This document shows, one piece after another, positions 29,338 through 52,660 of a stretch of DNA of 60,000 bases; position 1 is the stretch's first letter; each line of letters opens with the position of its first letter. The notes beneath the pieces were generated by a model. It saw only the letters and a program-made list of their open reading frames with translations. It made no database searches and was not told the origin of the DNA. The stretch spans positions 7,544,460-7,604,459 of the forward strand of contig NC_087083.1 in assembly GCF_026151205.1 (NCBI RefSeq), given 5' to 3'. The position numbers and the translations under genes are program-made. The DNA is from Bolinopsis microptera. Its lineage: Eukaryota; Ctenophora; Tentaculata; Lobata; Bolinopsidae.

Positions 29338-32300
29338 ATGGAAGACATGTGGAATCTTGATACGAAGTTAAAATCTCAGTTGTTTTTTCTACAAATCCTC
29401 ACGTTATCTCTTTGTGGTAAGTTGCATGACAAATTAGCTGATATTGTACTTATCATAATTGATCAAAAATAAATAAATAATTAATTATGATAGAAACTGG
29501 AAATATTGTACCACTCGTAAAAGGGCTTGCAATGAAAAAAAGAAGTTTAAAACTTGAACATTTCATTAAGATATTGCTTTTAAAATACCTCACGATCAGC
29601 AAGATATCCAATCTTTCCATTTCAGCGACCACTGCTAGGAAGATGCTGACTGATGAAGTAACACCAGATAGCTCTGTACACTCGGCAACCCACTCAACCG
29701 GGCACACTGCTGACAAGGCTACCGACAGAGACTGGGTGACCTTCTCCAGCATGAGCCAGGATTCTTACGGTAATTGTCTATATTTTCATTAATTAAAAGT
29801 TCTAAATAACAACGCCAAAGTTTAATCTTTCCCTAAAACAAATAACTAAATTTCAAAACTTCACTGCAGGTGAAACATGGATAAAGCTCATCCTTAACCA
29901 AGAACACTGTGTTAAACGCTTGGTGTGGTACTATGGTGCTCACAACATTTCTCACACCTGGACATGCTCTGCGACAGACTGCGGTCTCTGTGGGGGTGGC
30001 AAATGTGGCGACTACACTCTCCTAGTGTACACAGAGGGGCTGTCTTCTAACCTGCCACCGCTAACTGGATGTAAATATGGAAACAGAGTGAAGCTTGTAC
30101 GAAAGAGTTCTGGGTTTGACAATTATGCTGAGATAGCGATAATAGAAAAACTAGGTGACTATCAGAGTTCTCCATTATTTTACTGTTATTCCTCTTTAAC
30201 TCTTACGTACCTAAAATTCAGACTCCAAAACTTTGGACGCAATATATTTGAACACGAAATTTGGACACACTTTTGTCGATAAAATATATTTTGACACAAA
30301 CATTACAATCTTACTATAAGTATAATCTATAAAGCGAGACGATATACATATACATATATAATATGTATGTTTATATATCCGTACCATTTTACGGACACCA
30401 CGGCATCAACTTTAACACGACTTTCCGCAAAAACCGTAAAGATATAAAACTGAAACTTTAATAATATATTGTAGCTTGGGGTAATTGATTTTTACACGAA
30501 ATTTTTGTCGAGAGTGCAGCCCAATGTTACGACGCTCAAAATTTTTGGACGTAAAGTGTAACCTAATTTTCAAATTATTTTGACTGCGATACATTATTTA
30601 TTTCAGAACCGTGTACAGCAGGGAGTTACAGGTCAGTTAACATGACCAAATGTGAAAGTTGCACCGGAAATTACATCAGTTCACCAGATGCTACTTCATG
30701 CATTTGTGAAGCTGGAAAAGAAGCGAACACCAATAAAACTGAATGTGGTACGTACTCAAATTTTCTTATATAAGCAGATTTTGAACGTAAATCATACCTG
30801 AAGTTTTCAAATCAATCATTTGACCGATACATAATAATTTCAGGACCATGTGAAGCTGGTAGTTACAGGTCAGCTGGAATAGACATGACCCATTGTGAAA
30901 AGTGCACCGGAGAGTACATCAGCTCGGCGGGTGCTAGTTCCTGCAGCTCTTGTGGATATGGAACAAAAACGGACATCCATAAAACTGAATGTGGTAATTT
31001 ATTTTATTATTATTTTTTGAATGTGGTATGTCTCAGACCATTCAACTTGTTATACTTGTATATTGCATTTGGAAACGAGGGGAAACACACAAGGTTAGGC
31101 TTGAATCCTTCGTAAATAAACTACATCTTTGGAGCCTCAATAATTAATGTAATTGATTTGTAGTGTTGTAATTAGTTGAATTAGTAATTAGTTGAATTAG
31201 TAATTAGTTTACAAGATATACTTGTATCTCTATATTATCATTAGACAGACGAAGTTTCAATTTTAGACGTACAAGGTACAGGGTGGCCCAAAAGTGACTA
31301 CCCACACGCAACCTTTTAATAACTCACGTAATTCGTATAACTTAAGTTTTACTAATCGTTTGTAGCTAGATAAGTAATGCTTATAACTTCAACAATAATT
31401 TCTGCACTTCGCAGTACATTTTTATAGGTTTCATTTAGATAAACGGATAATCTTTTGAACGAATTATTGGAGATATTAAATCATGCGATTTTGGAATTTG
31501 AGAGACCATCGCTACACACAAGTAATTTATGTAATTTCAGCTATAAGAGAAAGAATTGATGGTGAGATAACCACAATTACAGCTGAAAACTCTCTCGACA
31601 ATGGGTTGTATGGTGCCGACCTCGCTCTAGACATGGACATGAGGACCCGTTCTATGACACAACCGCAAGGTTATTATATGGTGCTATTATATGGTGATTT
31701 GTGCTGCCTGGTTAAAGTTAACCCCTGGACTAAGACTCGTTTACTGATTTCTCTAACTCCAACTCTAACTCTAACTCTAACTCTAACTCTAACTCTAACT
31801 CTAACTCTAACTCTAACTCTAACTCTAACTCTAACTCTAACTCTAACTCTAACTCTAACTCTAACTCTAACTCTAACTCTAACTCTAACTCTAACTCTAA
31901 CTCTAACTCTAACTCTAACTCTAACTCTAACTCTAACTCTAACTCTAACTCTAACTCTAACTCTAACTCTAACTCTAACTCTAACTCTAACTCTAACTCT
32001 AACTCTAACTCTAACTCTAACTCTAACTCTAACTCTAACTCTAACTCTAACTCTAACTCTAACTCTAACTCTAACTCTAACTCTAACTCTAACTCTAACT
32101 CTAACTCTAACTCTAACTCTAACTCTAACTCTAACTCTAACTCTAACTCTAACTCTAACTCTAACTCTAACTCTAACTCTAACTCTAACTCTAACTCTAA
32201 CTCTAACTCTAACTCTAACTCTAACTCTAACTCTAACTCTAACTCTAACTCTAACTCTAACTCTAACTCTAACTCTAACTCTAACTCTAACTCTAACTCT

Positions 32301-34310
32301 AACTCTAACTCTAACTCTAACTCTAACTCTAACTCTAACTCTAACTCTAACTCTAACTCTAACTCTAACTCTAACTCTAACTCTAACTCTAACTCTAACT
32401 CTAACTCTAACTCTAACTCTAACTCTAACTCTAACTCTAACTCTAACTCTAACTCTAACTCTAACTCTAACTCTAACTCTAACTCTAACTCTAACTCTAA
32501 CTCTAACTCTAACTCTAACTCTAACTCTAACTCTAACTCTAACTCTAACTCTAACTCTAACTCTAACTCTAACTCTAACTCTAACTCTAACTCTAACTCT
32601 AACTCTAACTCTAACTCTAACTCTAACTCTAACTCTAACTCTAACTCTAACTCTAACTCTAACTCTAACTCTAACTCTAACTCTAACTCTAACTCTAACT
32701 CTAACTCTAACTCTTCCCTGTACCCCAGGTGCTGCCTGGTTAAAGTTAACCTTTGACCGGGTGTATTGTGTTGCTTGGGTCGCGTGGTACCCGGAAAATA
32801 GTCTGGATCCTCAAGCTAACTGAGGCCCCTTCCAGCCATTGCCACCTGCCACCTAATTTGGCAGGTTTTACATTTAGACTGATAATCAATTTGAAGTCTT
32901 AAAATGATTCCTGCAAAATTAACCGAAAACCTGCCTATTTATCGTATTCGTGCAGAGATTTATCTCACATAATTATTTAATCGAGTTGTTGATTTATAGA
33001 AAAGCCTGCAAAATTAACACAAAACCTGCCTCACCTTTCACCTACTCTCGGCAGGTTTGCTCTATTTTGGCAGGTTTTCCGTTAAATATAAAGTCGAATG
33101 CTGCAGATTTAACGCAAATCCTGCGTAAGTTGAGATAATTTGAATCAACTTGTGGCGTGATTAAACCTATATTGGCAGGGGTTTTGGATAATTTGAGTGT
33201 ACAATGTGGAATACTGTAATGATCGTATAACCTTATTACTAGGTAGGGTGTAGGACTGAGACTTGGTTTGTGCAAAGCTACAGAAGTACAGAATGCTTCA
33301 TGCCTACATGGCTCTATAGTTTATACTTTTATACATGCAGTCACTAGTCAGTGGCGAAACGACCGCCCGACACTCCGGCAACCCCTGCTATGCGGAAGGG
33401 GATGGGGGGGGGGGGTGCAGCTGCGGCCTCTTAGGTACGTTACGCCACTGCATATTATCCACTGTTACCAACACGGGGTCTATGATAAGTTTGAGTATAA
33501 AAGTACATATAAAAACCGATTATTGGAAAATAACTGTTTGCTTAACTTCAGTTCTTAGGTTGCCATTTTTAGATTAGATTGCTATGTTCTTAAGTAGTGA
33601 GGACAGCACTTTTTCAGTTGCAGTGCCTCTACCTGTTCATTGTTCACATTGTAAGATTTAGTGAATGAAGTGATTCTGAAAGAATCTTCAATTACAATTA
33701 ATATAATAGTTCTAAATATGCAGTTATTTTCAGATTATGAGATATTTGATCGGAAATTTGTCACACGTTAAAGTGACACTTAATAAGTTGGACCTTAATC
33801 GAAACTCGTATTCACGAATTGGAAATAGCTCGTACTATAATTTATAGGTTGACCTCCCACATATGCTCTAAGTGGGAGGTCAACCTATAACTCAAATTAT
33901 TGCTATTTACCAATATTAATTGATCACTGATGTGGCACTTTCAGCGGAAAATTAGTAATAGAAAGCGGACAAACCAGTTTTGGTGAAGGATGTATATCTT
34001 ATACTCTTATAGTAGTTGTACACTGTACAGCAATGCTAAGGTAATGAGGTAATGCTGTAATGGGACTACTGCGGACCCTCTACCGGCCAAACATATTATC
34101 TCATTATTGAAGGGTGTAGACTGTAATATAGATGTAAGAACTTGCTAAATTGGGAGGTGACTGTTTTAAAATGATCAGATGCTTGCTTACTAACTTATTA
34201 AGAATGAGAGGTGATAGTGATTTACTTTATCTTGACAGGACAGTTAAGTATTTAAGCTTAAGAAACCACGTGGAGCTAAACGGTGCAAGTGATATAATAC
34301 TTGAAAATTG

Positions 34311-34343
<33 letters not shown>

Positions 34344-37300
34344 ACAATTGACCAAACAAATATATTTATTATACTAACCCTAACAGTAACCCGATTGGGC
34401 GACATCTGTCCGACAGCGACATCTGTCCGACAGCCGAATCGGGGATTTCGGACAGATTTCGCTGTCGGACAGGAGTAGTTTTTGGCGACATCTGTCCGAA
34501 TTTCGGATCATATTGTAATTTCGGTTCACATTCGTATTTCACAAACTCACGGGTAATTTCGTGACGTTGCTCCCATTGTTCGAATGCTGATTTGATCCAT
34601 TGAGATCTGATCCATCGATACGTGATTGACTATTTAAGGACAGGATTGTGCTAGCCGTACACTAACAAGCTGTCGATCACATCACAGGACACAGCCTACA
34701 TGAGTACATATAGGATAGCAGCCGTATGGAGATCAGTTATCGCAATCCACAATGGCAACCAATCTTCAGTAAACAGACCCAGATCTGCAGCAAACAGACC
34801 CGAGAGATCTGGAAACGCTATCCATTCCTGCAAACTAAATCCTCTCTACCGACAACAGTCCAATGATGCTCTGGGACTCTGGATGGGACGAACAGACTCG
34901 TCGATCATTCCTTTGGGGGACTCCTAAGAACGCAGATCATATGGTGGACGCGGAGCATTGCGTAGTCAACGCCCAACGGTACCTTCAAATCCGCACCTAA
35001 TCTCTTCCATCAGCTCTTCACAGTCCACGGACTCTTCCCTGACGGCTGGCACCTCCCCCTCTTCTAAGGACTCATTCCTGGAAAATCGACGACCCTCTAC
35101 CGCAACATGTTCGAGGAGATAGACACCTGGGCTTCTGAGGCCTTGGGGCTACCAACCACAATACATTCTCATGGACTACGAGCTCGCCATTCACAACGCA
35201 GTTGCTTCATGCCTGCCTGCCTAGGTCGAAAATAAACTAGTAGTACACTATGGCTCAGATCATATCTCAAATTGGCAATGTTACGTATGCAAATTAACAG
35301 TTCAGATCACGTCTCTAATTGGAAATGTATTGTATTGAAATCATATCACAATTTCGGACAAATGTCGTTTTTTCTGGTACCCTGAGTCGGACAGATGTCG
35401 CTGTCGGACAGATGTCGCTGACAGGAGTCGTGTTACCCAGTAACCCTAACCCTGACCCTAACCCTGACCCTAACCCTGACCCTGACCCTAACCCTAACCC
35501 TAACCCTAACCCTAACCCTAACCCTAACCCTAACCCTAACCCTAACCCTAACCCTAACCCTAACCCTAACCCTAACCCTAACCCTAACCCTAACCCTAAC
35601 CCTAACCCTAACCCTAACCCTGACCCTGACCCTGACCCTGACCCTGACCCTAACCCTGACCCTAACCCTGACCCTAACCCTGACCCTAACCCTGACCCTA
35701 ACCCTGACCCTAACCCTGACCCTAACCCTGACCCTAACCCTGACCCTAACCCTGACCCTAACCCTGACCCTAACCCTTACCCTAACCCTTACCCTAACCA
35801 TGAATTGACCCCAGTGTAATTACATGGGGGGGTCAATTGTCGGGGGTAGATTGCATCAGGGGGTCATTTGTCGGAGGGGGGGGGGGGGGGAGGGGGTCAA
35901 TTGTTGCGGTACCATACTATATAAGTATATAGCGTACCATACCTCTCATTTGGAGATTCAGTGCCATGGTTGTCAGCTTTTTATCAACTCCGGCCAATTT
36001 CTTGACTGCGCTAATCAACTCGGTTTTATTGACTTTTAGTTTTGGTGCCAAATAAGCAAAATTCCAAATAACTTAAGAACTTAAAAGAAAGATAAAAGAA
36101 ACCTGCCAATTTATAAATTTAACGCTGCCATAATAAGATTATAGCATTATAATCTATTTGGCATGGATTGATAATTTTATAACAAATCCTGCAAAGTTAA
36201 TGGAAAACCTGCCGATTTAACTTTATCACTGCCGTAATCTATCCGGCAAGGATTGATAATTTTATAAAAAATCCTGCCAAGTTAATGGAAAACCTGCCGA
36301 TTTAACTTTATCACTGCCATAATCCATCCGGAAAGGATTGATAATTTTATAGCAAATCCTGCCAAGTTAATAGAAAACCTGCCAAATAACAAATACCTGC
36401 GCTGTTGATGCAGGATCACTAGTTAATTAGGCAGGTTTTGACATAAAAAATTAAGAGAAAACCTGCGGATTTAGTGTAATATACTGCTGATCTGGACAGG
36501 GTAAATTAGATTACTAGGCAGGAGTGGTAATTTCGCAGTCTTCGCTATTAACTGGGCAGGTTTTAGGTTAAATTCGCAGTGGCAATGGCTGGAAGGGGCC
36601 TTAACTGGCGTTGCGCTCAGACTGACTGCTTATCCTGTGAGGGTCACATGTGTAGTGGCTACTCTGTGACGGTCTATAACGTCAGGTATGCAACAATTAT
36701 CAAAACATTGTTTTTCTTTGTAGAGATTTTCATTATTATTGCATAAAATGTATAGCTTTTTCTTCTTTTTTTTTTTCTTTTTTTAATAACTTTGTTTTAC
36801 TGATAACTTTATTTTACTGTTAGTGCACTGCCGGAGGGTCTACCGGAACCCACTGACTGCAAGTACGGTAACACGGTAAAGCTGCAGTCGGGTGATGCTA
36901 GTAGTTTCTCTGTGTACGAGATAGCGGTGGCAAAGAAAGATGGTGAGATTACAAACTGGCTAATAGTGAAATAGTGAAATAGTGAAACATGTGTGTCATA
37001 GGTGTACAGTGTCCGTTGAAATATCTCACACACCATTTGCTCAACAAATAGTCGGACAAAATTTTTGGAAACTCTCTCGAGTTGTCTAATTTGCAGTTAC
37101 ACTGATCGCTCATTAACTCATTAAAACTTAAAAATGAAACATGTAATAATGTATACAAATGTCAGGATGCTCCAGTGATCACAGCTGGAGTCATTTAACA
37201 GTAGACCCTGATATACCAGTTCTACACGGACAGGAGATGACCCTGACTTGCCTAGCTGACTATCTCGACAAGGGAGGCAACAAGGCAACTTGTAAGAATG

Positions 37301-37523: not shown

Positions 37524-37624
37524 ATGTAGGATTACAATCATGATTATTAAATTCAATATTAAAATTTATGAGGACTTAGGCGCCATGGTAGCAGCTCTCT
37601 CGGCATTATTTTCAATTGTGATGC

Positions 37625-37630
37625 AATAAA
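37625..37630 (+). promoter_or_regulatory. Candidate polyadenylation signal AATAAA
   Basis: The first AATAAA after either predicted stop of the secreted-protein gene (37452 or 37523). Confidence 0.45.
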
Positions 37631-37836
37631 GTCTAAGGTCAGCTCTGGTACCGCAAGTACACTCCCTCATTTAAGATACTGACTCATAAATCATGAAATA
37701 ATTCCTCACAAAATAATAAATAATGAAATGATTTTTTTACGCTTTAAACAAGTGTGGTGTAAACTGTAACGTGAAATCAGTTAAGGAAATATTTGCTACC
37801 CAGCTGATATTGACCAACATACAATAAAATCACAGC

Positions 37837-37865
37837 AACAGCTGGGACAAAGATTACACTTTTCA
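37837..37865 (+). repeat. Duplicate of the SLC7 promoter block
   Basis: Matches 40523-40551 at 27 of 29 positions (AACAGCTG, GACAAAGAT, ACACTTTTCA). The copy upstream of it has AATAAAAT where the other has a TATA box. The two copies flank the GC-rich inverted repeat. Confidence 0.8.
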
Positions 37866-37997
37866 TACTGTTACTAATCATTCGGGGAATTCGTCGCCCG
37901 CGCCAAAATTTTAAAATTCAACTGTGGGAGTCCACCCAAAAATCCAGCTTAATAAATAAGGTCCTGACTCCTGTGGCGAATTTTAACCTATCGGCCT

Positions 37998-40462
37998 GAA
38001 AATTTCGGCACTATCCGTCGCGGAGTAGAGTCCGCGGCGGAGCCGCCGGACTCCGAGCGGACTCCGGCGGTGCTCCGCCAAAATGTATTTACACTGGACT
38101 CGAGTACATTTTGGCGGACTCCGAGCGGAGCCGAGCGGACTCCGAGCGGACTTTAAAGTCCGCCGCGGACTCCGAGCGGCTCCGCGGCGGCTCGGCGGAG
38201 TGTCCGCCGCGGACTAAGCCACTAGGCGGACTCCGGTCCGCCGCGGACTCCGGCGGAGTGCTTGGCGGACTCCGCCGGACCTCTCCGCCAGACTTGAATC
38301 CGGCGGAGCTTGGCGGACTCCGCCAGCTCGGTGGACTCCGCTCGGAGTCCGCCGGACTCCAACAGAGTCCACTGACTTCCGACCCTCGGCTAAATTTGTC
38401 ACGTGACATACAACATAGCATTTTGCAATATTGTGGTCAGATGAAAAGGTCGCTAGTGATAAACCTTAACCATTACGGTCACAATGTCAATAGTGTACAA
38501 CTCTAGTCCTAACTTTGACCCTATAATGTATAAACGTTGACCCTAACCCTCCACCAAACCGTCCGCAGCGAAATATCAATGTCATTGACTGGTCACGTGA
38601 CCAAAACAATTTTTGTCATATTATAATTAGGGTTAGGGTTAGCGTTTTTAGTTTTACCCTACACGTTGCATGCATGTGGCGTCATTCGGCCGGATCCCAG
38701 CAAGCAAAAATACGTCGACCATCACAGGACGACGCCAGCCAGCACTCTCTACGCTCTTCGAGCTCCAATCGTCCTGTGACGAAGTAAGGACGAAGCCTGA
38801 GGTCCTCAGGTAACATCGACCACCGATTGAAAATTCAAAAATTTTTTGACATAAAGGTCAAATGTAAAACTAAAATCTTGATGTTGATTGATCGACGACG
38901 TCAATTTTAAAAAAGAAACCTAGCCAGAGTGGAAGTCGGCGCCCTCATTAAATTTTTGGAGAAAATCGCTCGCCAAAATTTGTTGGACCAGGACGATGTC
39001 CTAGCCTGGCAGCTCATTGCGCGTCGCAACGAGCTTCGTTGTTCGTCGACGTGCGACGAGCAACGAGAAAAATTGTGTGGCACGTCGGGTGGCACATCTT
39101 AACGGGTGATACGCGTATAAATTTCGATCGCTGACGTACAGCGAGCAGCACAGCTGCGAGTGGCGTCAGCTAGTAGGATTTCATCCTACAAGGCACATCG
39201 CGTTTACCTAGCTAACCAGGTCATTTCCGCCTCCGGCGGTCGCGCGCTATATATACTACTGCAAGCTTACCTGAGGACCCCAGGCTTTAATGTTGTTAAT
39301 AGAGATTAGGCGGAATGACAGGCTGAGCGCGGCCCAGTAACTGCAAGCGAGAGGGCTATATAGTTAGACTTAGAGCAACACATCGCGCCACAAGCCAAAT
39401 ATTTATCAACATCTTGACTAGCTACGCGGTCCTTTTCCGCATGCGCTCGCGCTGTGCTCAAAAATTGACGTCGCGTCGTCAATCAATTAACATCAAGATT
39501 TTAGTTTTACATTTGACCTTTATGTCAAAAAATCTCTGAATTTTCAATCGGTGGTCGATGTTACCTGAGGACCTCAGGCTTCGTCCTTACTTCGTCACAG
39601 GACGATCGGAGCTCGACGAGCGGAGAGAGTGCTGGCGTCGTCCTGTGATGGTCGACGTATTTTTGCTTGCTGGGATCCGGCCGAATGACGCCACATGCAA
39701 CGTGTAGGGTAAAACTAAAAACGCTTCCCTATATGAGATAATATGACACAAATTGTTTTGGTCACGTGACCAGTCAATGACATTGATATTTCGCTGCTGG
39801 CGGTTTGGTGGAGGGTTAGGGTCAACGTTTATACATTATAGGGTCAAAGTTAGGACTAGAGTTGTACACTATTGACATTGTGAGGGTAATGGTTAAGGTT
39901 TATCACTAGCGACCTTTTCATCTGACCACAATATCGCAAAATGCTATTGGCTATGTTGTATGTCACGTGACAAATTTAGCCGAGAGTCGGAAGTCGGAAG
40001 TCGGAAGTCAGTGGACTCTGTTGGAGTCCGGCGGACTCCGAGCGGAGTCCAAGCTCCGCCGGACTCCGCCGGATTCAAGTCTGGCGGAGAGGTCCGGCGG
40101 AGTCCGCCAAGCACTCCGCCGGAGTCCGCGGCGGACCGGAGTCCGCCTAGTGGCTTAGTCCGCGGCGGACACTCCGCCGAGCCGCCGCCGAGCCGCTCGG
40201 AGTCCGCGGCGGACTTTAAAGTCCGCTCGGAGTCCGCTCGGCTCCGCTCGGAGTCCGCCAAAATGTACTCGAGTCCAGTGTAAATACATTTTGGCGGAGC
40301 ACCGCCGAAGTCCGCTCGGAGTCCGGCGGCTCCGCCGGAGTCCGCTCGGAGTCCGCTCGGAGTCCGGCGGCTCCGCCGGAGTCCGCTCGGAGTCCGCTCG
40401 GAGTCCGCTCGGAGTCCGGCGGCTCCGCCGCTCTACTCCGCGACGGATAGTGCCAAAATTTC
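37998..40462. mobile_element. 2.5 kb GC-rich inverted repeat (foldback)
   Basis: Arms of about 900-1000 bp (37998-38910 and 39462-40462) are near-perfect reverse complements, from the outer CACTATCCGTCGCGGAGTAG to the inner ACATCAAGATTTTAGTTTTA-type sequence. The outer 400-450 bp of each arm are built from GGCGGACTCCG and CGGAGTCCGCTC words. The centre (38911-39461) holds an open frame and a copy of the TTACCTGAGGACC repeat. Length differences between arms come mostly from the CGGAGTCCG tracts. It lies directly upstream of the SLC7 promoter. Confidence 0.88.
38911..39102 (+). CDS. 63-codon open frame in the centre of the inverted repeat
   Basis: The frame opens after a TAA at 38908-38910 and stops at 39100-39102. 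It reads as plausible protein (GALIKFLEKIARQN, DDVLAWQLIARRNELR), unlike the low-complexity arms. There is no Met near the start and no splice site is certain. It may be a transposase piece or a captured host exon; I do not recognise it. Confidence 0.25.
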   Translation, partial: KRNLARVEVGALIKFLEKIARQNLLDQDDVLAWQLIARRNELRCSSTCDEQREKLCGTSGGTS

Positions 40463-40508
40463 AGTTGAGGACATGACCATTGACTAACCACCTGATCGAT
40501 CAATAGAG

Positions 40509-40515
40509 TATAAAA
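40509..40515 (+). promoter_or_regulatory. Candidate TATA box of the SLC7 gene
   Basis: TATAAAA, with an initiator-like TCAGTG about 40 bp and a TCACAC about 30 bp downstream, and the start codon at 41018 following an ATG-poor leader of about 470 nt. Confidence 0.5.
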
Positions 40516-41017
40516 ACAGAGTAACAGCTGCGACAAAGATCACACTTTTCAGTGAATTGAACTACGCCTTACTGCTCATTGTCTGTGAAATCTTGAGAAA
40601 GGGAAACAAAGATGAGACGTTTATTCAAAACATCAACTATTAAAACATCTACTGTTAAGTAAGTTACCATAGCAAGTTAAGTAAGTTATCACTTAAGTTA
40701 TCATTTAATAAACCAATATCATAACCGGAGATCCAGGTCCAGATCCCGTTTTAGATATAGTCAGCTCCAAGCCTCTTTCTTTGCAGTTTACAGACAAAAA
40801 GTTGTTATTTCAAGCCTACGTTCTTCTGGAAACTTTCCCGTGAAACAGTAGCTGCAGTTAACAAAATTTCTTGACCAAACTCCAGCTTCATTTGATTCTA
40901 TAAGCTTCACTAAAGCACCACTGCTACTTTGCTTTTCGATTGCTTGGAAATCTGCCAATTAAAAAGTAGCATCTGGACATCTGAAGAAACTGGTTATTTG
41001 TTCTGGTCGACGTAGGA

Positions 41018-44000
41018 ATGGGAAACCAAATGTTCCCTCAAACGGAGCCAACTGAGAGAACGGAACTTATACCCATTCTGGACAGGTATTATTATTACTA
41101 ATATTAGTAATAATATTATTAATAATATTATTACTAAATACTTATACTGTTACTAATATTATCTTGTTGATACTTGACACTTGTTCTGGATAGGTTCTGC
41201 CCTTATAAGATAATTACTTAGTATGAGAACAATACCCATTCTAATTGACATTTGTCAACTCTCACGCATTTTCATGCTCTCAAACACACGATTGACTTGA
41301 ATAAATCGTTCCTGTTAGCGTAATCGGTTTCTGTTTGCGTATTTTGTTTCTGTTTCTGTTTACGTATTTTGGTTTTCCCTCCACAGAGACAATGAATGTT
41401 GTGATCGCCGGCTGAGTGAAATCGAAATGGGGGTTGATAAAGGTTTGTCTTAATTTCATCATTTTACAAAACTTTAAATTTTGAAATCCGTCGGTGGTCG
41501 CTTAATGGCGTGCCTTATAAATGACCCATAGGCATAACTAAAATTACCCTGTAGGTTTGCAAAAATAAATGACTTAATATCCCCCAGATCTCCCCACTGA
41601 ACTAGAACCACACTTTACCCTACTTTCCACCGTTCTGTTCGCTGTCGGGCAAACAATCGGCTCAGGTTTGTTACTTTAACAATTATCATTGTGCATAATT
41701 AAATCTGAGCATATTATATAACCCTACATTAAGTTGGTAAATACAAAGGTAGACGCTAGCTTTCCCTCGTTTACTGATTTCTCTAACTCTAACTCTTACT
41801 CTTACTCTAACACTCTAACTCTGCCCGGTACCCCAGGTATATTCGTGTCTCCTAACGAGGTTGTGAAACAGGTGGGATCCCCGGGTATGGCGCTTGTAAT
41901 CTGGGTTGTTTCCGGTCTTATCTCTCTCACTGGTTAGTATTGCTTACTGGTGGGGTGAACCATGTAGGCACGTGACAGTGAATAACCAATGAGCTTCCAG
42001 TGTTGATCCGACCAACAAAATCTCAGAATCACTGTCACCTCCCCATAAGTGTCCAGATATGTTATTTTTTATTTTAGTTCTAGTTTCATTTTTATTATTC
42101 ACTTTGGGAGATCGAGCCTTGAAGTTAAAAATACCTGGATACCTTTTCTATTGTAAAATTTCTCTCCCTTTTTTATTCCACTGATCAAGCCTGGAACATG
42201 CAGTGATCGTTTTCAAAAAAGATTCAGTTCTTTGTTTTCTAATTCAACTCACTGACTGCACCTGTTCATCATGTTTTATCATTATTCATTTATAACGCTA
42301 TGATAGTATTAAAAGCCGGTGGCAGACTCCATGATCTTAAGTCCACCATATAACATATTCATGAATATTCTTTACGAGGGAGGGGGTGGTAACTTTAGGC
42401 TAAGACCTGATCATGTTGGTTATTCGACTTAATCAATTGATTGATTAATTAATTAATTAATTATTCATGTTACATCGGTTTTACTTCAGGAGCGTTGTCG
42501 TTTGCAGAGCTCGGTACGATGATCAAAAGATCTGGAGGAGAATTCCAATATATCAAAGCAGCGTAAGTCAGCACAAATACCCCAAATACCTCAAATATCT
42601 TTCATTATAAATGCTATACTAGTCCAGGAAGATACTGCCGAAATAATATTTTGTGCCTACAAAGTACAATAAAAGATTAATATAAAACTAAAACTAGATA
42701 CGGTAAACTCCCCTCGTTCGTGTACCTCTGGATGTGCGGTGTTATCAGAAACTCTATGGGTTGTGCAGTGATCGCCCTTACTTTCTCCAGCTATCTCATC
42801 TCTATCTTTATGAGTCACGAGCATCCGCATTTCTTGCTTGCTAAGAAAACTGGTGCGGCAACTGCCATTGGTGGGTGTTTTTTGGTTGATGATCCGTGAT
42901 AATATTGATGAACAGTGTTTTACGGATACACTTTAGAACTAATTCTTGGTTAAAATCTTTAGAAAATTGACATTAATTCAGCCAATGAAATTCACAAAAA
43001 CCAACTTCAGTGCTCATAATCGTGGTAAACTCGATCAGCACAAAGTGTGGGGTGAGAATGGCCAATACTTTCTGTGTTCTAAAACTGCTGGCTCTGTTCG
43101 TACTGATAGTGCTGGGTGCCTGGAAACTAGGTGAAGGTAGGTGCCGACAGTTATTAGTTAATTAATTAATTCGTTAATTCGTTAATTGCAATCTATAATA
43201 GGTTAATTTATGAAAGTAGAGTGGAAATAAAAAAGTATTTTGTACTTTTCAGGGGGAACTGAGAACATCAAAGTTGGGTTTAAGGACACAAACATGAATC
43301 CAGGAACTTGGACAACTGCATTTTTTGCTGCTCTTTGGTCTTACAGTGGCTGGTTTGAAATTAGTTTATTGATCATCATTTCAGTCGAATATTTTCAAAG
43401 TTGTCGTTGATCATGCGATCTTAAATTTAGAATTATAAGTTATCAAGAATTATAAGGAAGAACGTTGGTATTTTAAAATGATACAAAAGGAGCAAATATC
43501 CTCCATTCCCTACCACCAGGAATTGTATAAACATGATGGCGGGAGAAATAAAAAACGCCTCAAAGAATGTTCCCAGAGCCCTTGTAATCTCCCAGATAAC
43601 ACTGATAACAGTTTACTTGCTAGCTAACATAGCTTACTGTTCTATCCTCACTCTCGAGGAACTGTACAATGTGGATGCTATTGCGCTGGTGAGTATTAGA
43701 GTTCATTTGTTTTTTTGTAGTTTTTATTTTCCTGCGTCGGATTGGACAAATAAATACTTGATAAAAAAACTTGTAAAAGTTATAAAAGTTATAAAACTTG
43801 ATATATTACTGAAAATAAAAAGTAGTTCCATCGATAAGAGGATATAATATTAGGCTAAAACCATTTTTAATTGATGCCAAATGATTGATGTGTCAATAAC
43901 GGGTGTCCGTTGTGACGCGTGTTGCAGTCGTAACGCGTGAGTCGTAACGCGTGAGTCGTAACGCGTGTCAGTTAACGCGTGTCTTTCTACAGTTTGTAGG

Positions 44001-47000
44001 GAAGAAGATGTTGATAAGATACGGAGATTACTGGGGACGTTTTGGAGAGATCTTCTTTGGTATAAGTGTAGTGATCTCAACATACGGTTCTCTGTCATCA
44101 AGTCTAATGGGCTCGTCAAGGTACCGTGTTGCATTTTAACTCATTACCATAAGTGTCTCAGTGGTTCGTAGAAAAATGGAAATATTCGTGCCAAGAAAAT
44201 ATCAGTAACTGTAACCTGTTGCTGTGAATTTGAAGAGACCATCTCGGCGGTGCATCTCGCCAAGGTTTATACCTTAATTATTTAATTCTTCAATCGTTTA
44301 ATTCCTTAAATTATATTATTTAATACTTTAATTTTCTCAGATTACCATTCATAGCAGCCCAGGAGGGTATGTTTCCGAAATGTGTGGGTCTTATACAGAC
44401 AAGGACTGGAACCCCGATAGTTGGGGTCCTTTACATTGTAAGTTAACATGTGTTATCCAATTATGAGTGGTGATAGTTTCCAAATACAAGCCATCATCTT
44501 AATGACGTATTTCCAATCTGGTTCATAGATAATTTTTAAGTTCTGATGTATGTGATATGTCTAACGGACTTCAGCTTAATATATGATTTCGAATATTCGT
44601 CAATCCATTGGCCTCATTTCCTAGCTTTGCCTTTATCAATTATTATATGCGATATGTCACCATATGCAATAAAATATTGCAATAAAAACATTGCATTGCC
44701 ATAGAAAATGATGCGCTGAAAATATTGCAATAAATTCAAGTGATGAAGCAAATCTTGGTTCAATCCCAATTCTACCTGAGACTAACCCCCAGGGTTTCAC
44801 AGCATTCCTGTTTGTCTGGCCGAGCAACATTACAAACCTGATAGCGTACGTGGGTTTCCTGTCCTGGTTCTGGTGGGGACTGTGTTTCCTTGCTGTTCCT
44901 GTTCTCAGGTGGAAGATGCCATGCTGCCCTCGCCAATTCAAGGTAACTTAGTAACTTAGTAACTTAGTAACGTAGTAACTTAGTAACTTAGTAACTTAGT
45001 GACTTAATAACTTAGTAACTTAGTAACTTAGTAACTTAGTAACTTAGTAACTTAGTAACTTAGTAACTTAGTAACTTAGTAACTTAGTAACTTAGTAACT
45101 TAGTAACTTGGTAACTTAGTAACTTAGTAACTTGGTAACTTAGTAACTTAGTAACTTAGTAACTTAGTAACTTAGTAACTTAGTAACTTAGTAACTTAGT
45201 AACTTAGTAACTTAGTAACTTAGTAACTCAGTAACTTAGTAACTTAGTAACTTAGTAACTTAGTAACTTAGTAACTTAGTAACTTAGTAACTTAATAACT
45301 TAGTAACTTAGCCCTGGTTCTGGTGGGGACTGTGTTTCCTTGCTGTTCCTGTTTTCAGGTGGAAGATGCCATGCTGCCCTAGCCAATTCAAGGTAACTTA
45401 GTAACTTAGTAGAGTTGAGACACAGTTAATAAACTGCGGAGTGACTAAAATGCTATACAGCAAAAACAGAACGCTCCAACCAAACACTCCACCTACTGAT
45501 CCTAACCACCCTAACAACTCTCTAGCTCTCTCTCTTCAACCCTCATTCCCTCACTCCTCTTGGTGCACAAAACCATTCTAACCTATGTATGTCCCCCCTA
45601 CGGGTTCCACAAGCCCAACGGTACATAGTTAGACGAAAAACAGAGAAGCCTTGATTGCCAGATCAAGGACTGCATCAGTAGCAGCGAAATACGGATATAC
45701 CTTCTCCCTTACAGTCAGCGAGCTGACAACTATCTGACTGTGTCTTTTAGGCCTTGCCACACCACCTTCGCTATTGCATCCGCTCGCCCGTATTCACTGA
45801 CACATGCCACACCTGGGTTTAGTATGAAGATGTACGCATATTCACCCAAGATGCGGAGATGCCTCAGTTTAGCGAGTTGAGATACAACAGCAAACTCACA
45901 GGAGCATGGATCAGAATCATCAGTTACCAACCTGACACCGTTTCGGGGCTTTAATCGCAATACGGTTTCCTGTCAGGCGCCCCAGCAGTCCACCCTTGAA
46001 CCACCATCTGATCCGAGAGTCACTTGAGGAGACCCGTTAGAGCTCGCAATTGGCGACGAGATAACGTTTATGGTACCTCTAGATGTTAAGTGAACTCTCA
46101 AGTTCCAACCTTCCTGAACTCCCACTCCCTCTTTCTCGATAACAAATAAATCCATCTGGAACAGTGGGCTGCCTCTTTCCCGCTGTCCCGTACCAGCTTC
46201 TTCAGCTCTCTTCCCCTAAAACCAATCCTCCTCGCAGCTCTCTCCAAACTCTGCGCAACCACTCCCCTAGCTCCAACTTCGACTGCGGCATTATAACAGC
46301 ACCAACCTTTCGCCTGAATCTCAGCCTGCAGACCGCTGTATCGGTCGAGCTTGTACTCGTGCGATTCAGCGATCCGCTCTTCAGATGGTACTGTTAGCTC
46401 CCACCAAATAACTGTCTTTGCCGACCTTGAGAATATCACAAGGTCCGGCCTCAGCCGTGTTTCCACAATCTCACTGGGAAACTTAAGCTGCCCCTCAAGG
46501 TCTGACAGCACTATCCAATCCCGATACCCACTCAGGATCCCAAAACCACGACTCTCCTTCCGGTCGTCTGTACCCGCTTTTCTTTTCCCAGCAGGAACAA
46601 AATCAATGAACTGCCTTCCATCGCCGGCCTTGTTCTTATAAGTGTTCACTCGGCGATCACAATGGAAGACAACCTGTTCAGAGATCTGCTTCAGAACCTT
46701 GTCGTGCCGCCATCTATACCTTCCTTGACTAAGGGCCACCTTACACCCAGCCAAAATGTGCTGAATGGTGCCCATCCTCTCCTCACATAACTTGCACTTC
46801 CCATCCTCATCTTCACTCCACTTGGAAACCATAGAGGGGGTTAAGAGGGTGCCGTACACAGCACTTAGCATGAACCCAATAAGTGAGTCACCATACTTAA
46901 AAAGTGTATGCCAGCTCAAATCCGTCTTCATTACGAGCTCTCTCCACTCACCCCATCTGCTCTGCATCTCCAGAGAACCTACTTGCACCTCCCTCTCTCT

Positions 47001-50000
47001 TTCAATGTTCTCCTTCACTCTCAGCATAACCTCCCTCTCTCTTTCCCGCTCATCCATCCTCTCCCAAGGTTTTTTCCAGTCACCAAAACCGATGCCAACT
47101 CTTTTTTGAGGTTGCACCATCCCTCGCACCGATTCACAGACCAAATCTCTTCTGGCCTCTTCCAGTTCTGTCTCAGGCCTCCAAACTCTGCCAGAACGAA
47201 CTTGGGGCTGGACTGAGAGAGATAAGGAGAGTTAGAGGGGATTTTAGTAACTTAGTAACGTAGTAACTTAGTAACTTAGCCCTGGTTCTGGTGGGTACTG
47301 TGTTTCCTTGCTGTTCCTGTTTTCAGGTGGAAGATGCCATGCTGCCCTAGCCAATTCAAGGTAACTTAGTAACTTAGTAACTTAGTAACGTAGTAACTTA
47401 GTAACTTAGCCCTGGTTCTGGTGGGTACTGTGTTTCCTTGCTGTTCCTGTTTTCAGGTGGAAGATGCCATGCTGCCCTAGCCAATTCAAGGTAACTTAGT
47501 AACTTAGTAACTTAGTAACGTAGTAACTTAGTAACTTAGCCCTGGTTCTGGTGGGGACTGTGTTTCCTTGCTGTTCCTGTTTTCAGGTGGAAGATGCCAT
47601 GCTGCCCTAGCCAATTCAAGGTAACTTAGTAACTTAGTAACTTAGTAACGTAGTAACTTAGTAACTTAGCCCTGGTTCTGGTGGGTACTGTGTTTCCTTG
47701 CTGTTCCTGTTTTCAGGTGGAAGATGCCATGCTGCCCTAGCCAATTCAAGGTAACTTAGTAACTTAGTAACTTAGTAACGTAGTAACTTAGTAACTTAGC
47801 CCTGGTTCTGGTGGGTACTGTGTTTCCTTGCTGTTCCTGTTTTCAGGTGGAAGATGCCATGCTGCCCTAGCCAATTCAAGGTAACTTAGTAACTTAGTAA
47901 CTTAGTAACGTAGTAACTTAGTAACTTAGCCCTGGTTCTGGTGGGGACTGTGTTTCCTTGCTGTTCCTGTTTTCAGGTGGAAGATGCCATGCTGCCCTAG
48001 CCAATTCAAGGTAACTTAGTAACTTAGTAACTTAGTAACGTAGTAACTTAGTAACTTAGCCCTGGTTCTGGTGGGTACTGTGTTTCCTTGCTGTTCCTGT
48101 TTTCAGGTGGAAGATGCCATGCTGCCCTAGCCAATTCAAGGTAACTTAGTAACTTAGTAACTTAGTAACGTAGTAACTTAGTAACTTAGCCCTGGTTCTG
48201 GTGGGTACTGTGTTTCCTTGCTGTTCCTGTTTTCAGGTGGAAGATGCCATGCTGCCCTAGCCAATTCAAGGTAACTTAGTAACTTAGTAACTTAGTAACG
48301 TAGTAACTTAGTAACTTAGCCCTGGTTCTGGTGGGTACTGTGTTTCCTTGCTGTTCCTGTTTTCAGGTGGAAGATGCCATGCTGCCCTAGCCAATTCAAG
48401 GTAACTTAGTAACTTAGTAACTTAGTAACGTAGTAACTTAGTAACTTAGCCCTGGTTCTGGTGGGGACTGTGTTTCCTTGCTGTTCCTGTTTTCAGGTGG
48501 AAGATGCCATGCTGCCCTAGCCAATTCAAGGTAACTTAGTAACTTAGTAACTTAGTAACGTAGTAACTTAGTAACTTAGCCCTGGTTCTGGTGGGGACTG
48601 TGTTTCCTTGCTGTTCCTGTTTTCAGGTGGAAGATGCCATGCTGCCCTAGCCAATTCAAGGTAACTTAGTAACTTAGTAACTTAGTAACGTAGTAACTTA
48701 GTAACTTAGCCCTGGTTCTGGTGGGGACTGTGTTTCCTTGCTGTTCCTGTTTTCAGGTGGAAGATGCCATGCTGCCCTAGCCAATTCAAGGTAACTTAGT
48801 AACTTAGTAACTTAGTAACGTAGTAACTTAGTAACTTAGCCCTGGTTCTGGTGGGTACTGTGTTTCCTTGCTGTTCCTGTTTTCAGGTGGAAGATGCCAT
48901 GCTGCCCTAGCCAATTCAAGGTAACTTAGTAACTTAGTAACTTAGTAACGTAGTAACTTAGTAACTTAGCCCTGGTTCTGGTGGGGACTGTGTTTCCTTG
49001 CTGTTCCTGTTTTCAGGTGGAAGATGCCATGCTGCCCTAGCCAATTCAAGGTAACTTAGTAACTTAGTAACTTAGTAACGTAGTAACTTAGTAACTTAGC
49101 CCTGGTTCTGGTGGGGACTGTGTTTCCTTGCTGTTCCTGTTTTCAGGTGGAAGATGCCATGCTGCCCTAGCCAATTCAAGGTAACTTAGTAACTTAGTAA
49201 CTTAGTAACGTAGTAACTTAGTAACTTAGCCCTGGTTCTGGTGGGTACTGTGTTTCCTTGCTGTTCCTGTTTTCAGGTGGAAGATGCCATGCTGCCCTAG
49301 CCAATTCAAGGTAACTTAGTAACTTAGTAACTTAGTAACGTAGTAACTTAGTAACTTAGCCCTGGTTCTGGTGGGTACTGTGTTTCCTTGCTGTTCCTGT
49401 TTTCAGGTGGAAGATGCCATGCTGCCCTAGCCAATTCAAGGTAACTTAGTAACTTAGTAACTTAGTAACGTAGTAACTTAGTAACTTAGCCCTGGTTCTG
49501 GTGGGTACTGTGTTTCCTTGCTGTTCCTGTTTTCAGGTGGAAGATGCCATGCTGCCCTAGCCAATTCAAGGTAACTTAGTAACTTAGTAACTTAGTAACG
49601 TAGTAACTTAGTAACTTAGCCCTGGTTCTGGTGGGGACTGTGTTTCCTTGCTGTTCCTGTTCTCAGGTGGAAGATGCCATGCTGCCCTAGCCAATTCAAG
49701 GTAACTTAGTAACTTAGTAACTTAGTAACGTAGTAACTTAGTAACTTAGCCCTGGTTCTGGTGGGGACTGTGTTTCCTTGCTGTTCCTGTTTTCAGGTGG
49801 AAGATGCCATGCTGCCCTAGCCAATTCAAGGTAACATTAATCAACCAATTTATCCAAGTGGTTGTATATAAAACTGCCCCACTTAAGAGCCTACCAAGGA
49901 AATATATGGTGTATAAGATATTTTTCGCAGCCTAGATCCACCTTTACATACTCACTCTGGTGATTTAAAGAATTCACCGAAGATTTGGATCCCAAGAGAG

Positions 50001-50572
50001 TTTGTATTTCAGTGAGGCAGTAGGTACTTGGTAACATAACCCTCTCTTTTCAGGTGAGTTTGATAATCCCGGCTGTAGCAGTGCTCTCCACAGTGTACTT
50101 GGTGGTGGGGCCCTTCTTTGTGAATCCCATACCTTGTCTGCTCTGGATTGGTATCACTCTTCTCGGTGAGTCTATCACAACTGGTTTTTGAGATTAAATC
50201 AATAAAACTTGTGATTGAATGAAACAAATCAAGTTCGAGGTGGAGCATAGTTTTCCTTGTTTATACGGCTTTTTGTCATCTTTCAATCCGGATGGAGCAC
50301 TTTCCTACTATCACAGAATTTTTGTCTTAAAAGTAGCCGTTATAATTTACATGTACATTGCTGGAAAAATCAGCAAATAGTGGAATTCGACGGAATTCAA
50401 CGGAATTCCACAGAAATTATATTATAACAGCAAATTAGCGCCTATAAATCTAAAATTTATAAATCACCCATGGACTCGTTAACTAGTATTCAATTAAAAT
50501 CAATTAACAGGGGTGCCAATATACTACGGTTACGTTGACGGAGACAAATCCTGTTCCAGATGGATGGGTTAG
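41018..50572 (+). CDS. SLC7 (LAT-family) amino-acid transporter, complete
   Basis: Fourteen exons join in perfect phase to 495 residues: 41018-41085, 41387-41442, 41588-41665, 41837-41932, 42490-42562, 42698-42870, 43011-43136, 43253-43352, 43520-43688, 43993-44120, 44341-44437, 44793-44942, 50054-50165, 50511-50572. The length suits heterodimeric-transporter light chains (about 490-535), with 12 hydrophobic segments. Signatures: GSGIF at 66-70 in TM1, the substrate carboxylate/amine-binding loop; FAELGTMIKRSGGEFQY after TM2; YSGWN near 254-258 in TM6; EIKNASKNVPRA after it. These fit Na-independent exchange of neutral or cationic amino acids at the plasma membrane. The extracellular loop after TM3 (FMSHEHPHFLLAKK) lacks the Cys that links light chains to the SLC3 heavy chain. 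Intron 12 is inflated to 5.1 kb by satellites and a LINE; other introns are 0.1-0.6 kb. Confidence 0.95.
43905..43986 (+). repeat. 14-bp repeats just before the exon 10 acceptor
   Basis: Four to five units of GAGTCGTAACGCGT and variants end a few bases before TTTCTACAG. Each carries TAAC, a possible branch-point core, and CpGs. Confidence 0.85.
44943..45312 (+). repeat. Octamer array GTAACTTA beginning exactly at the exon 12 donor
   Basis: About 46 units with rare variants (GTAACGTA, GTAACTTG, GTGACTTA). The first unit is the 5' splice site of exon 12 itself. Confidence 0.97.
45313..45392 (+). repeat. First displaced copy of the exon 12 3' end
   Basis: An 80-bp copy of 44863-44942 with the same changes as the main array (TTTCAG for TCTCAG, CCTAGC for CCTCGC), followed by GTAACTTA units and then the LINE insertion. 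Confidence 0.95.
45412..47243 (-). mobile_element. 5'-truncated non-LTR retrotransposon with restriction-like endonuclease
   Basis: A minus-strand element inserted in the GTAACTTA spacer, with TTAGTA on both sides (45406-45411 and 47244-47249) as likely target duplication, though the repeat context makes this ambiguous. The coding part (46098-47144, frame open to about 47230) is the C-terminal end of the polyprotein; the reverse transcriptase is missing, as in 5' truncation. About 690 bp of 3' UTR follow. It lies antisense in SLC7 intron 12. Confidence 0.82.
46098..47144 (-). CDS. C-terminal LINE fragment: zinc knuckle and restriction-like endonuclease
   Basis: 348 residues, with the frame open about 30 codons farther upstream, so the Met is not a real start. 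A CCHC-like knuckle lies at C117, C120, H129, C134, followed by a GRYRWRHD block (141-148). A PD-(D/E)xK-type endonuclease follows: RPD at 232-234, WELTVP near 248-253, and EYKLDRY near 263-269. This knuckle plus endonuclease order at the C-terminus is that of site-selective R2/NeSL-type LINEs. The frame is intact, so the insertion is fairly recent. Assigning it to a particular clade would need the missing reverse transcriptase. Confidence 0.8.
   Translation of the reverse strand: MVCESVRGMVQPQKRVGIGFGDWKKPWERMDEREREREVMLRVKENIEREREVQVGSLEMQSRWGEWRELVMKTDLSWHTLFKYGDSLIGFMLSAVYGTLLTPSMVSKWSEDEDGKCKLCEERMGTIQHILAGCKVALSQGRYRWRHDKVLKQISEQVVFHCDRRVNTYKNKAGDGRQFIDFVPAGKRKAGTDDRKESRGFGILSGYRDWIVLSDLEGQLKFPSEIVETRLRPDLVIFSRSAKTVIWWELTVPSEERIAESHEYKLDRYSGLQAEIQAKGWCCYNAAVEVGARGVVAQSLERAARRIGFRGRELKKLVRDSGKEAAHCSRWIYLLSRKREWEFRKVGT
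47244..49830 (+). repeat. 130-bp minisatellite, 20 copies, made of exon 12 end plus splice donor
   Basis: Units start at 47281 and then every 130 bp to 49751. Each has an 80-bp copy of the last 80 bases of SLC7 exon 12 and a 50-bp spacer of six GTAAC-starting words. Nearly all copies carry TTTCAG where exon 12 has TCTCAG, and all carry CCTAGC for CCTCGC; the copy at 49621 keeps TCTCAG. A G/T variant in TGGTGGGKACTG alternates along the array. Every copy therefore holds a pyrimidine tract plus CAG and, 34 nt later, CAAG|GTAAC. The array lies in intron 12. Confidence 0.98.
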
Positions 50573-51865
50573 AACTTGTTAATCAATTAATTAATTTAAT
50601 TAATTAATTAATTCAGTTACCATTTTCCATCACTATCTTCACATTAAATTTCGATCAACCAACAGATTCTATTCATTTTAGGAAATCATCGATAGCTCAT
50701 TAAATTAACTTGATCTAATTTTCGGTGGATTGGTGCTTAAATTTTTTTTTAAATAATTGGTTACTGTTGCCGTTAACATTGCTAGTAAAAAGCGATGCTG
50801 TGGATACCAAACTTTAGTAACAGCTATCGCCTATCATAGATTAGGATCTATAATGCTTGGTTTAAATTTTAATACCCTAATTTAATAGGGTATTGTTCAA
50901 TCCTGAAACTACAATTGATTTTCAGATAAGCTCAATGACATTTTGGCAAAGGTTCTTCGCGCTGAACTGTAGCATCTTCTACACGGAGAGAACGGTCATT
51001 AAAGTATATCCAAAGACTTTTGAGACTTATGGATATCTGAAAACTTTTAAACTCTTTAAATATTTTGTTTTATGAGACTAAGAGTATTTTAAAGATTTTA
51101 TGAAAATATCCAGGATCAGATAACTACTGTTTTGTCTACAAGAGGTAAATAAACAATATATTTTCTCGGTTTAATTTGTGGGCGCCATTTCAAATGGCAA
51201 AAAATAAAAATCAGTTCTGTAGTATTGTTGATAAAATTTGCCATACATATTGAAACATATCATACTAATAGTCATTGCAAACCGCATAAAATTTTAACCT
51301 CATGCAACGCGTGTTTACAGATATTAACCATCATCATCAGTGGAACTGGAATAGACAACTTATTATTAAAACGTGACAATGCTTACCAAGTTCATTTTCA
51401 AATTTCAAACTCGTAAGAATTACTGAGACATCCAAAAATTCCACTCCAGTAATTATACTGCCATATTTTAACATATCTCACCTTAATATTTTAGCTTGGA
51501 ATGTTCAATATAAATATGCACTGCAACTTATACAATATTGCAATGTACAATTACAAATGTTACAAAAGAATGCAACCAGTATATGAGCAATATTTTGGGT
51601 CATCAAATTAAATTAATTAATTAATTAATTATTTGACCTTTATGTAACCTTCCCATCTTATATACTGTAACAAGCGAAAGAGTGTAACAACTGCAAAGAT
51701 AAAACGTTCAAGGGAGTCTAATGGTTTATCTCCCGTACTTCTCGTGCAAGCTGAAAACTCGGATATACGATCTTTGGTGACGCAACTTTAGACTTTTGGT
51801 GACGTCACGCTACATTTTGGTGACGTCACGTTAGATTTTGGTGACGTAACGAGAGGATTGCGTGT
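50573..51865. other. Convergent intergenic stretch between SLC7 and calmodulin genes
   Basis: AT-rich with TTAATT microsatellites near 50580-50610 and 51605-51630, and an AATAAA near 51148 that may serve SLC7. Near 51780-51850 TTTTGGTGACGTCAC-like words recur three to four times, including CRE-like TGACGTCA. No further gene is seen. Confidence 0.5.
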
Positions 51866-52660
51866 TTAAACTTTACTGCACATAATGTCCTTAAACTCCT
51901 CAAAACTGACGAGTCCGTCTCCGTCTTTGTCTGCTTGTCGCATCATTTCTTTCACCTGAACAAGGGATTGGTGTGTTAACAATAACACAAACATAACGCA
52001 AATAGCTGTTGTAAAAACATTGGTTATTACAACTAAAGCAGTCAAAATACTTACTCGAATCAGTTAAAATCAGTAACCATACTAACTAAAAACAGTTACC
52101 ACACCAACTACAAACAGTCACCACACCAACTAAAAACAGTTACCACACCAACTACAAACAGTCACCACACCAACTAAAAACAGTCACCACACCAACTAAA
52201 AACAGTTACCTGCTCTTCGTCCAATTCTTCTCCCAGGCTTGCTAGAACGTTCGTCAGTTCATCTTGGTCTATAAATCCGTTACCTGAAAAGGTTAAAATG
52301 TTAAGAACCACCAAGTTATAGACCAATATACCAGTGCAGTTAACCGGGCGAACTAAAATTAAACCAGGCGAACTAAAAACCCAGTTAATATGGTTTAATT
52401 TAAACGTGCTGAATAAATCTCGCTCGCAAAAATAACTATTGGTTGTCATCTCAATAATACTTTTAATGTAACTTTCTTATAATTAGTTTCACAATCAATC
52501 TGTAATTCTGGACTCTAAAATTTGGACAGATATCATTACAATTGAATCAGAACTCCTACGATCATATTGTAAATATTCATTTTAACCCACCATCCTTATC
52601 AAACATATGAAATATCTGTTTCAGCTCGTCGTCCGAGTGGTTCTGATTTGGTTTTGACAT
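51866..52660 (-). CDS. Alternative short form: two-EF-hand protein from an internal first exon
   Basis: An exon at 52591-52660 opens with ATG and encodes [20 protein letters not shown] then DKD, ending in phase 1 at a GTGGGT donor. It joins in frame to 52210-52283 and 51866-51955, giving 77 residues with two canonical EF hands. It replaces the 53901-54005 exon, whose end ([14 protein letters not shown]) is homologous and in the same phase. The two are therefore alternative ways to enter EF3, and an internal promoter upstream of 52660 is implied; CACGTG at about 52860 and ACGTG words lie there. If both forms are made, one locus yields a full sensor and a C-lobe-like half. Confidence 0.75.

Follow-up and report, generated by a model that had tools for sequence, protein, structure and literature searches.

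Mirage-type arrays at an exon-intron boundary of an SLC7-like gene and tandem repeats at splice donors in the ctenophore Bolinopsis microptera

Mirages and intron 12 of an SLC7-like gene

Tandem repeats built on the junction between an exon and its intron, termed mirages, were reportedly first described by Canestro et al. In the Adh3 and globin genes of amphioxus, they are minisatellite-like tandem duplications that span the exon-intron boundary with units of 10-160 bp, many of which retain AG/GT signals, and experiments by reverse transcription PCR (RT-PCR) together with the Adh3 data suggested that regular splicing is undisturbed by the repeats (PMC3087553). A striking case of this already known phenomenon is found in intron 12 of an SLC7-like gene of the ctenophore Bolinopsis microptera, which lies within a stretch of 60,000 nucleotides (hereafter, the window; C12:7544460-7604459 of a 264.65-Mb genome). 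A preliminary description of the window had pictured tandem repeats nucleating at splice signals in three of its genes as the outcome of a genome-wide process. Analysis of the window and of 180 kb outside it revealed that arrays anchored at 5' splice sites (donors) do recur, at a frequency without clear excess over random placement at predicted donors. With a probability of roughly 0.58, they reflect the frequent birth of minisatellites filtered by selection on exons, the donor-anchored arrays being for the most part a survivorship edge in a genome where arrays are plentiful.

The tetranucleotide AGGT is a detail associated with the gain of introns by tandem genomic duplication. In that process, an exon segment is copied in tandem along with its splice signals (PMC4974935); SLC7 intron 12 shares the tandem exon segment and the signals, but here it is an existing intron that grew. 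Like the amphioxus mirages, intron 12 holds tandem units spanning an exon-intron boundary; unlike them, it combines 22 boundary copies with a nested 8-mer array and an inserted block, and the case is known from the DNA of one assembly. Taking as a mirage any array whose unit joins an exon end to an intron start, we would place in this class, from their DNA, the SLC7 130-bp array (81 + 49 bp) and two arrays on C5 with units of 38 bp (8 bp of exon + 30 bp) and 71 bp (approximately 36 bp of exon); no such unit is present in the 8-mer array, in the 22-mer array of a calmodulin-like gene, or in arrays on the acceptor side. Boundary-spanning arrays outside the cephalochordates were sought in a literature search at the level of titles and abstracts that covered few subscription journals, and no report was found.

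The SLC7-like exons keep their reading frame across 13 introns, and the protein encoded up to exon 12 matches AA_permease_2 of Pfam (E=3.1e-48, residues 51-431 of the first 438); the gene is predicted on this evidence to encode an amino-acid permease. Exon 12 (44793-44942, plus strand; assigned by frame and Pfam) encodes ..WFWWGLCFLAVPVLRWKMPCCPRQFK and terminates in CAATTCAAG at 44942, its last 81 bp forming the tail that is copied downstream. Intron 12 (44943-50053, plus strand; 5,111 bp) extends from the donor AAG/GTAACT to the acceptor TTTTCAG/GTGAGT with the frame intact, and exon 13 (50054-50165, plus strand) carries on from exon 12 with VSLIIPAVAVLSTVYLVVGPFF.. The intron opens, at its very first base, with 46 copies of the 8-mer GTAACTTA (44943-45311, plus strand; 39 of the 46 units exact), an array scored at 689 by Tandem Repeats Finder (TRF), with which all tandem arrays were called. 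A second copy of the 81-bp tail (45312-45392, plus strand), with three differences from the true one, is followed by 2.3 further units of GTAACTTA. The array is then interrupted by a block on the minus strand (45412-47241, ends approximate) that has array units on both sides and contains an open reading frame of 377 amino acids (46098-47231, minus strand); this frame resembles part of a reverse-transcriptase element (Pfam zf-RVT, E=4.6e-5, short of the curated cut-off), and the block as a whole looks like a portion of a non-LTR (long terminal repeat) retrotransposon. Some retroelements prefer simple repeats as targets, and the GTAACTTA array may have served as the target of this one.

Beyond the block lie 19.9 copies of the 130-bp unit (47244-49835, plus strand; 99%, TRF score 5114), in which the 81-bp exon tail is joined to GTAACTTA units totalling 49 bp. 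The string CAATTCAAG/GTAAC thereby occurs at 22 places from 44942 to 49830, namely the real boundary and 21 copies; these 21 extra copies of the exon-12 tail with its donor, whose units straddle the exon-intron boundary, are a feature beyond the preliminary description. Relative to the true tail, two differences are found in all 21 copies, a third in 20 and a fourth in 11. The opening 49 bp of the 8-mer array are the same as the 49 bp inside the 130-bp unit, including an odd GTAACGTA at unit 4, and hence the larger unit probably originated at the real boundary at a time when the short repeat was already present. The final 130-bp copy continues into GTAACATTAATC, probably the old start of the intron.

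The strength of donors and acceptors was expressed as a percentile among predicted sites, 184 in the case of donors. That the repeated words are themselves 5' splice sites, as originally proposed, applies only in part. The first SLC7 unit, AAG/GTAACT, stands at the 89th percentile, compared with the 8th for the repeated TTA/GTAACT. In the calmodulin-like gene, the exons of which give a 150-aa EF-hand protein, 6.6 copies of a 22-bp unit (52065-52210, minus strand; TRF) start at the donor of intron 5 (51956-52209, minus strand; first intron base 52209), and the first of them is at the 97th percentile with later units at the 57th-58th. Those 130-bp copies that were scored bear a full-strength donor (89th percentile) together with a cryptic acceptor within the exon tail (73rd percentile), a combination that would suit the earlier suggestion of selected decoys, in which donors or branch points within repeats would be retained for their effect in tuning splicing. 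Such selection is unlikely for the 8-mer because its repeated units are poor donors, and as a general explanation it is highly improbable: the junction AG preceding the exon-tail copy is at the 0-1st percentile in the two copies scored, all four exon-tail differences alter amino acids upon translation, and the copies are near-identical and so carry no information on constraint.

The 81-bp tail copies within 47244-49835 amount to 27 codons in phase 0 that are open in the SLC7 frame, and the 49-bp spacers between them start with GT and end with AG. Use of these in-frame cassettes as real exons was considered and rejected because the junction AG scores too low.

Arrays and predicted splice sites within and beyond the window

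Under the preferred reading, minisatellites would arise often and at many non-coding sites of this genome. A gene in which a 5' splice site is overlapped or abutted by a tandem duplication would survive, since the donor still joined to the exon, the first of the series, would remain available for splicing, and the extra copies would become additional intron. Exons would be intolerant of such growth, so that selection on them would set the visible edge of an array, which would thus begin at the exon end or repeat the exon tail inside the intron. The SLC7 frame is intact across an intron bearing 21 extra donors, and tolerance of these boundary copies would be expected on such a scheme.

Tandem arrays (TRF score at least 40) cover 15.5% of the window, and 19.3% and 10.7% of two 50-kb blocks; for comparison, TRF tandem repeats were given as 13% for Hormiphora (PMC8527503). 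The 180 kb sampled outside the window came from four blocks selected for their position (C1, C3, and C5 at 5.00-5.05 Mb, 50 kb each, and C7 at 5.00-5.03 Mb, 30 kb), in which the gene models are predictions of a gene finder trained on these blocks, 30 kinase loci and the window (184 introns). No Pfam family was found for the gene with the C5 38-mer or for two C3 exon pairs, and two other exon pairs gave sub-cut-off matches only; the models of the C5 38-mer gene and the C3 exon pairs therefore rest on the gene finder. Positions were evaluated with a footprint test, which took over from a simpler distance-to-donor permutation and in which the position of an array was randomised over the array-free length of the intron, with overlap of the exon by one unit allowed.

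Within the window, known introns hold 15 arrays, three of which cover a donor, compared with 0.93 expected (p=0.06, from the same data that prompted the hypothesis); these are the SLC7 8-mer, the calmodulin-like 22-mer and a weak 13-mer at 31672. None of the 15 covers an acceptor. Donor-anchored arrays recur beyond the window. On C5, the 38-mer array (..TTAACAAG/GTAATTAC.., period 38 bp) includes the donor in its unit, as does the 71-mer array, for which the gene finder had placed the donor approximately 30 bases off; this was corrected by eye, and the corrected donor was used in the footprint test. The 71-bp exon-boundary unit occurs in two arrays of 24 and 8 copies (25272-27002 and 28627-29194 of block B5) within one predicted intron. 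On C3, an 11-mer array of 59 copies begins 2 bases inside an intron.

Outside the window, predicted introns contain 50 arrays, six of which cover a donor against 4.4 expected (p=0.25), a result of low power that is compatible with a 2-fold effect, and one of the six, at a predicted 42-bp intron, is doubtful. Confining the outside set to arrays of at least 2.5 copies gave five of 30 against 2.95 expected (p=0.11), and acceptors are covered by four of the 50 arrays against 4.4 expected in this small sample. Of the genome-wide process proposed in the preliminary description, the recurrence of donor-anchored arrays on C5 and C3 has thus been upheld, but an excess at donors outside the window has not. 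Base coverage by arrays at donors was 0.63 times that of intron interiors (confidence interval 0.20-1.24, 79 introns), with the donor covered in 5 of the 79 introns and an interior coverage of 10.1%, a comparison with a bias against nucleation, in that the expansion of arrays raises the interior coverage.

Donor-like words in arrays and competing explanations

Tandem triples of exact 8-mers at a spacing of 12-42 were counted genome-wide. Four words in donor context, AGGTAAGT, AGGTGAGT, AGGTTAGT, and AGGTAACT, gave 958, 812, 2299, and 2055 triples, respectively, and ten reversed or shuffled words gave 0, 192, 94, 1, 309, 365, 130, 92, 557, and 342, such that all four rank above all ten (exact p=0.001). 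This rank test lost its specificity with the 872 triples of TTGTAACT, which has the GTAAC core in a non-donor context, and the 832 of the acceptor word TTTTACAG; the reversed forms of these two, for which, as for all built-in reversed words, triple counts were obtained without places, gave 179 and 115. Arrays were also counted per word, by eye, among the places listed, with same-period clusters within 15 kb taken as one and the Mb referring to the listed extent. On this basis, the donor words were found in 9 arrays per 48.1 Mb (AGGTAAGT), 10 per 25.9 (AGGTGAGT), 9 per 27.2 (AGGTTAGT), and 11 per 27.4 (AGGTAACT), one array at C1:849.9 kb bearing two of them. The counts were 10 per 148.2 Mb, 7 per 187.8 (taking C9 as 16.7 Mb, a minimum), and 12 per 108.6 for the shuffled controls TGAGATAG, GATTAGGA, and AGTAGATG, 12 per 47.3 for TTGTAACT (3.9 times the controls), and 15 per 155.4 for TTTTACAG (1.5 times the controls). 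The average word in the 180-kb sample projects to approximately 368 triples and 37 arrays genome-wide, with 0.53% of its loci in such arrays; the donor words therefore stand at about 2.2 times this average and the chosen controls beneath it. Abundance does not account for the excess of AGGTGAGT, since it occurs 8,474 times as a single word, compared with 7,650 for its reverse. Expressed per locus, 0.8-1.2% of donor-word loci lie in arrays compared with 0.15-0.3% for the three controls and 0.3% for TTGTAACT, with the locus numbers estimated from 6-29 sample loci or, for AGGTGAGT, from its 8,474 occurrences.

No other 5-mer is as significantly enriched as GTAAC across the 163 arrays sampled. Outside the window, it is present in 20 of 119 array units against 5.2 expected; AGTAAC, GGTAAC, and TGTAAC are each elevated in array units, and CGTAAC is found in two arrays in all against 0.8 expected. 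GTAAG and GTGAG were not enriched in the 163 arrays. Twenty-four of the 31 arrays bearing GTAAC or GGTAA lie more than 10 bases from any predicted donor, and the 18 that are in predicted introns comprise seven in sense orientation, nine antisense (one being the SLC7 130-mer, scored against the wrong gene model), and two with both.

Several of the results obtained weigh against a survivorship edge. In the footprint test on the window and the 180-kb sample combined, nine of 65 arrays cover a donor against 5.3 expected (p=0.05), as do seven of the 43 with at least 2.5 copies against 3.8 expected (p=0.045), so that the association originally proposed finds some backing in the pooled data but not in the outside sample by itself. 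By the distance test on three blocks, five of 37 arrays are within 10 bp of a donor against 2.2 expected (p=0.06); the same test at 5 bp or less gave two of 37 against 1.1 (p=0.32). Among the places listed, the donor words amount to 39 arrays per 128.6 Mb and the three controls to 29 per 444.6 Mb, a ratio of 4.6. AGGTAAC is present in five sampled arrays against 0.53 expected, and CAAGGT in 10 against 1.43 (outside the window, 9 against 1.1). Finally, predicted donors hold just eight occurrences among the 51 sample loci of the four donor words, and the survivorship account would therefore require an added sequence preference.

Such a preference might suffice without splicing. It is conceivable, albeit tentatively, that properties of the DNA sequence itself account for a surplus of GTAAC/GTTAC, CAAGGT/ACCTTG, and CTAAC in the minisatellites of this genome, and that near-donor arrays resemble repeated donors only through this word bias. 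The enrichment of GTAAC after A, G or T and that of CAAGGT outside the window are consistent with this, as are the many such arrays outside predicted genes, the balanced orientation, and the frequency of TTGTAACT arrays among the places listed; the donor-context words, by contrast, are approximately 3-fold above TTGTAACT per locus, on small locus estimates. An alternative that seems unlikely is that arrays are donor-born, with tandem duplication starting preferentially at 5' splice sites as hotspots of minisatellite birth, candidate routes being structures formed by nascent RNA, the stalling of forks, or repair at the edge of the exon. The exact donor starts in the SLC7-like and calmodulin-like genes would be expected from it, as would the higher triple counts (812-2299 against 0-557) and per-locus shares of the donor words. 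Against it stand the positional test outside the window, the modest lead of the donor words over an average word with controls that fall below that average, the lack of enrichment of the canonical GTAAG and GTGAG, and the triples of TTGTAACT and the acceptor word, which are level with those of two donor words. Slightly more doubtful still is the strongest form of the proposal, that 5' splice sites are several-fold, donor-specific, genome-wide hotspots of array birth through which introns grow by copying their own start.

The excess of donor-like words in arrays exists; given that TTGTAACT is itself 3.9 times the controls, splicing need not be the cause. At 4.6 times three controls and about 2.2 times an average word, this excess is a concrete, testable residue. 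The abundance of minisatellites in this genome provides ample natural material for determining whether tandem duplication is attracted by splice donors or just tolerated there, and the same material could address whether such arrays contribute to the growth of introns or give rise to new exons.

Acceptor-side arrays, the CTCTAA module and neighbouring repeats

Intron 6 of a gene for a secreted protein (31670-32728, plus strand; predicted exons 31541-31669 and 32729-32760) reads, in order, GTTATTATATGG.., a 23-bp copy of the head of the next exon (31701-31723), 12 bp, and a module, CTCGTTTACTG..CCCCAG. The CTCTAA array that it contains (31751-32714, plus strand; 160.7 copies, 99% identical, 159 of 160 units exact, TRF score 1921) ends 14 bases (TCCCTGTACCCCAG) short of the intron end at 32728, and the array of the 14-mer AGTCGTAACGCGTG in SLC7 intron 9 (43926-43981, plus strand; TRF) halts with 11 bases left in the intron, which ends at 43992. 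Hence, of the four arrays in 20 kb that the preliminary description had placed at splice signals, the two at the donors of SLC7 intron 12 and calmodulin-like intron 5 are so anchored, but the two at acceptors stop short. Nor was nucleation at acceptors borne out by their coverage in the small outside sample or by the frequency of TTTTACAG among the places listed.

The four arrays also fail to represent four separate cases. Self-BLAST showed that SLC7 intron 3 finishes with another copy of this module, which runs up to the acceptor (41766-41836, plus strand), with 31736-31790 aligning to 41766-41822 at 91% and 32669-32730 to 41781-41838 at 87%; the module ends at AG in both introns. In a genome-wide search, its 24-base left flank was found in two copies only at up to two mismatches, and the CTCTAA case consequently looks like copying and not independent nucleation. 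The neighbouring repeat domain has a predicted phase-1 intron (29770-29869) at the equivalent position that is free of the module, which suggests that secreted-gene intron 6 predates the module there.

The module resembles introner-like elements (PMC4457414) in having its own 3' splice site and in being present here in two introns. Elements of that class have many dispersed copies bounded by splice sites, and the left flank of the module has two at up to two mismatches. Unlike such elements, the module occupies the end of an intron that has a counterpart at the same position in the neighbouring domain, and it therefore probably did not create that intron. For the CTCTAA case, the favoured explanation is that the 3' intron end was copied, in one direction or the other, between neighbouring genes 10 kb apart and that the hexamer later expanded in one of them. 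The direct repeat of the exon head that flanks the module agrees with copying, as do the common AG end and the limited distribution of the left flank in a search reaching two mismatches.

The coding exon that follows secreted-gene intron 6 is split by a 3.78-kb element (32823-36601) with inverted ends of approximately 23 bp (AGGCCCCTTCCAGCCATTGCCAC) and a target duplication of 6 bp (TAACTG). Within the element lie a C-run and other arrays. Further along, a long inverted repeat occupies 38035-40337, its arms (38035-38908 and 39461-40337) being 92% identical with GC-rich CCGCCGGACTC-type repeats at their outer ends. Another inverted pair, 13858-14462 and 17952-18546, matches at 91% and consists of AGCGCT-type repeats, with approximately 3.5 kb between the two arms.

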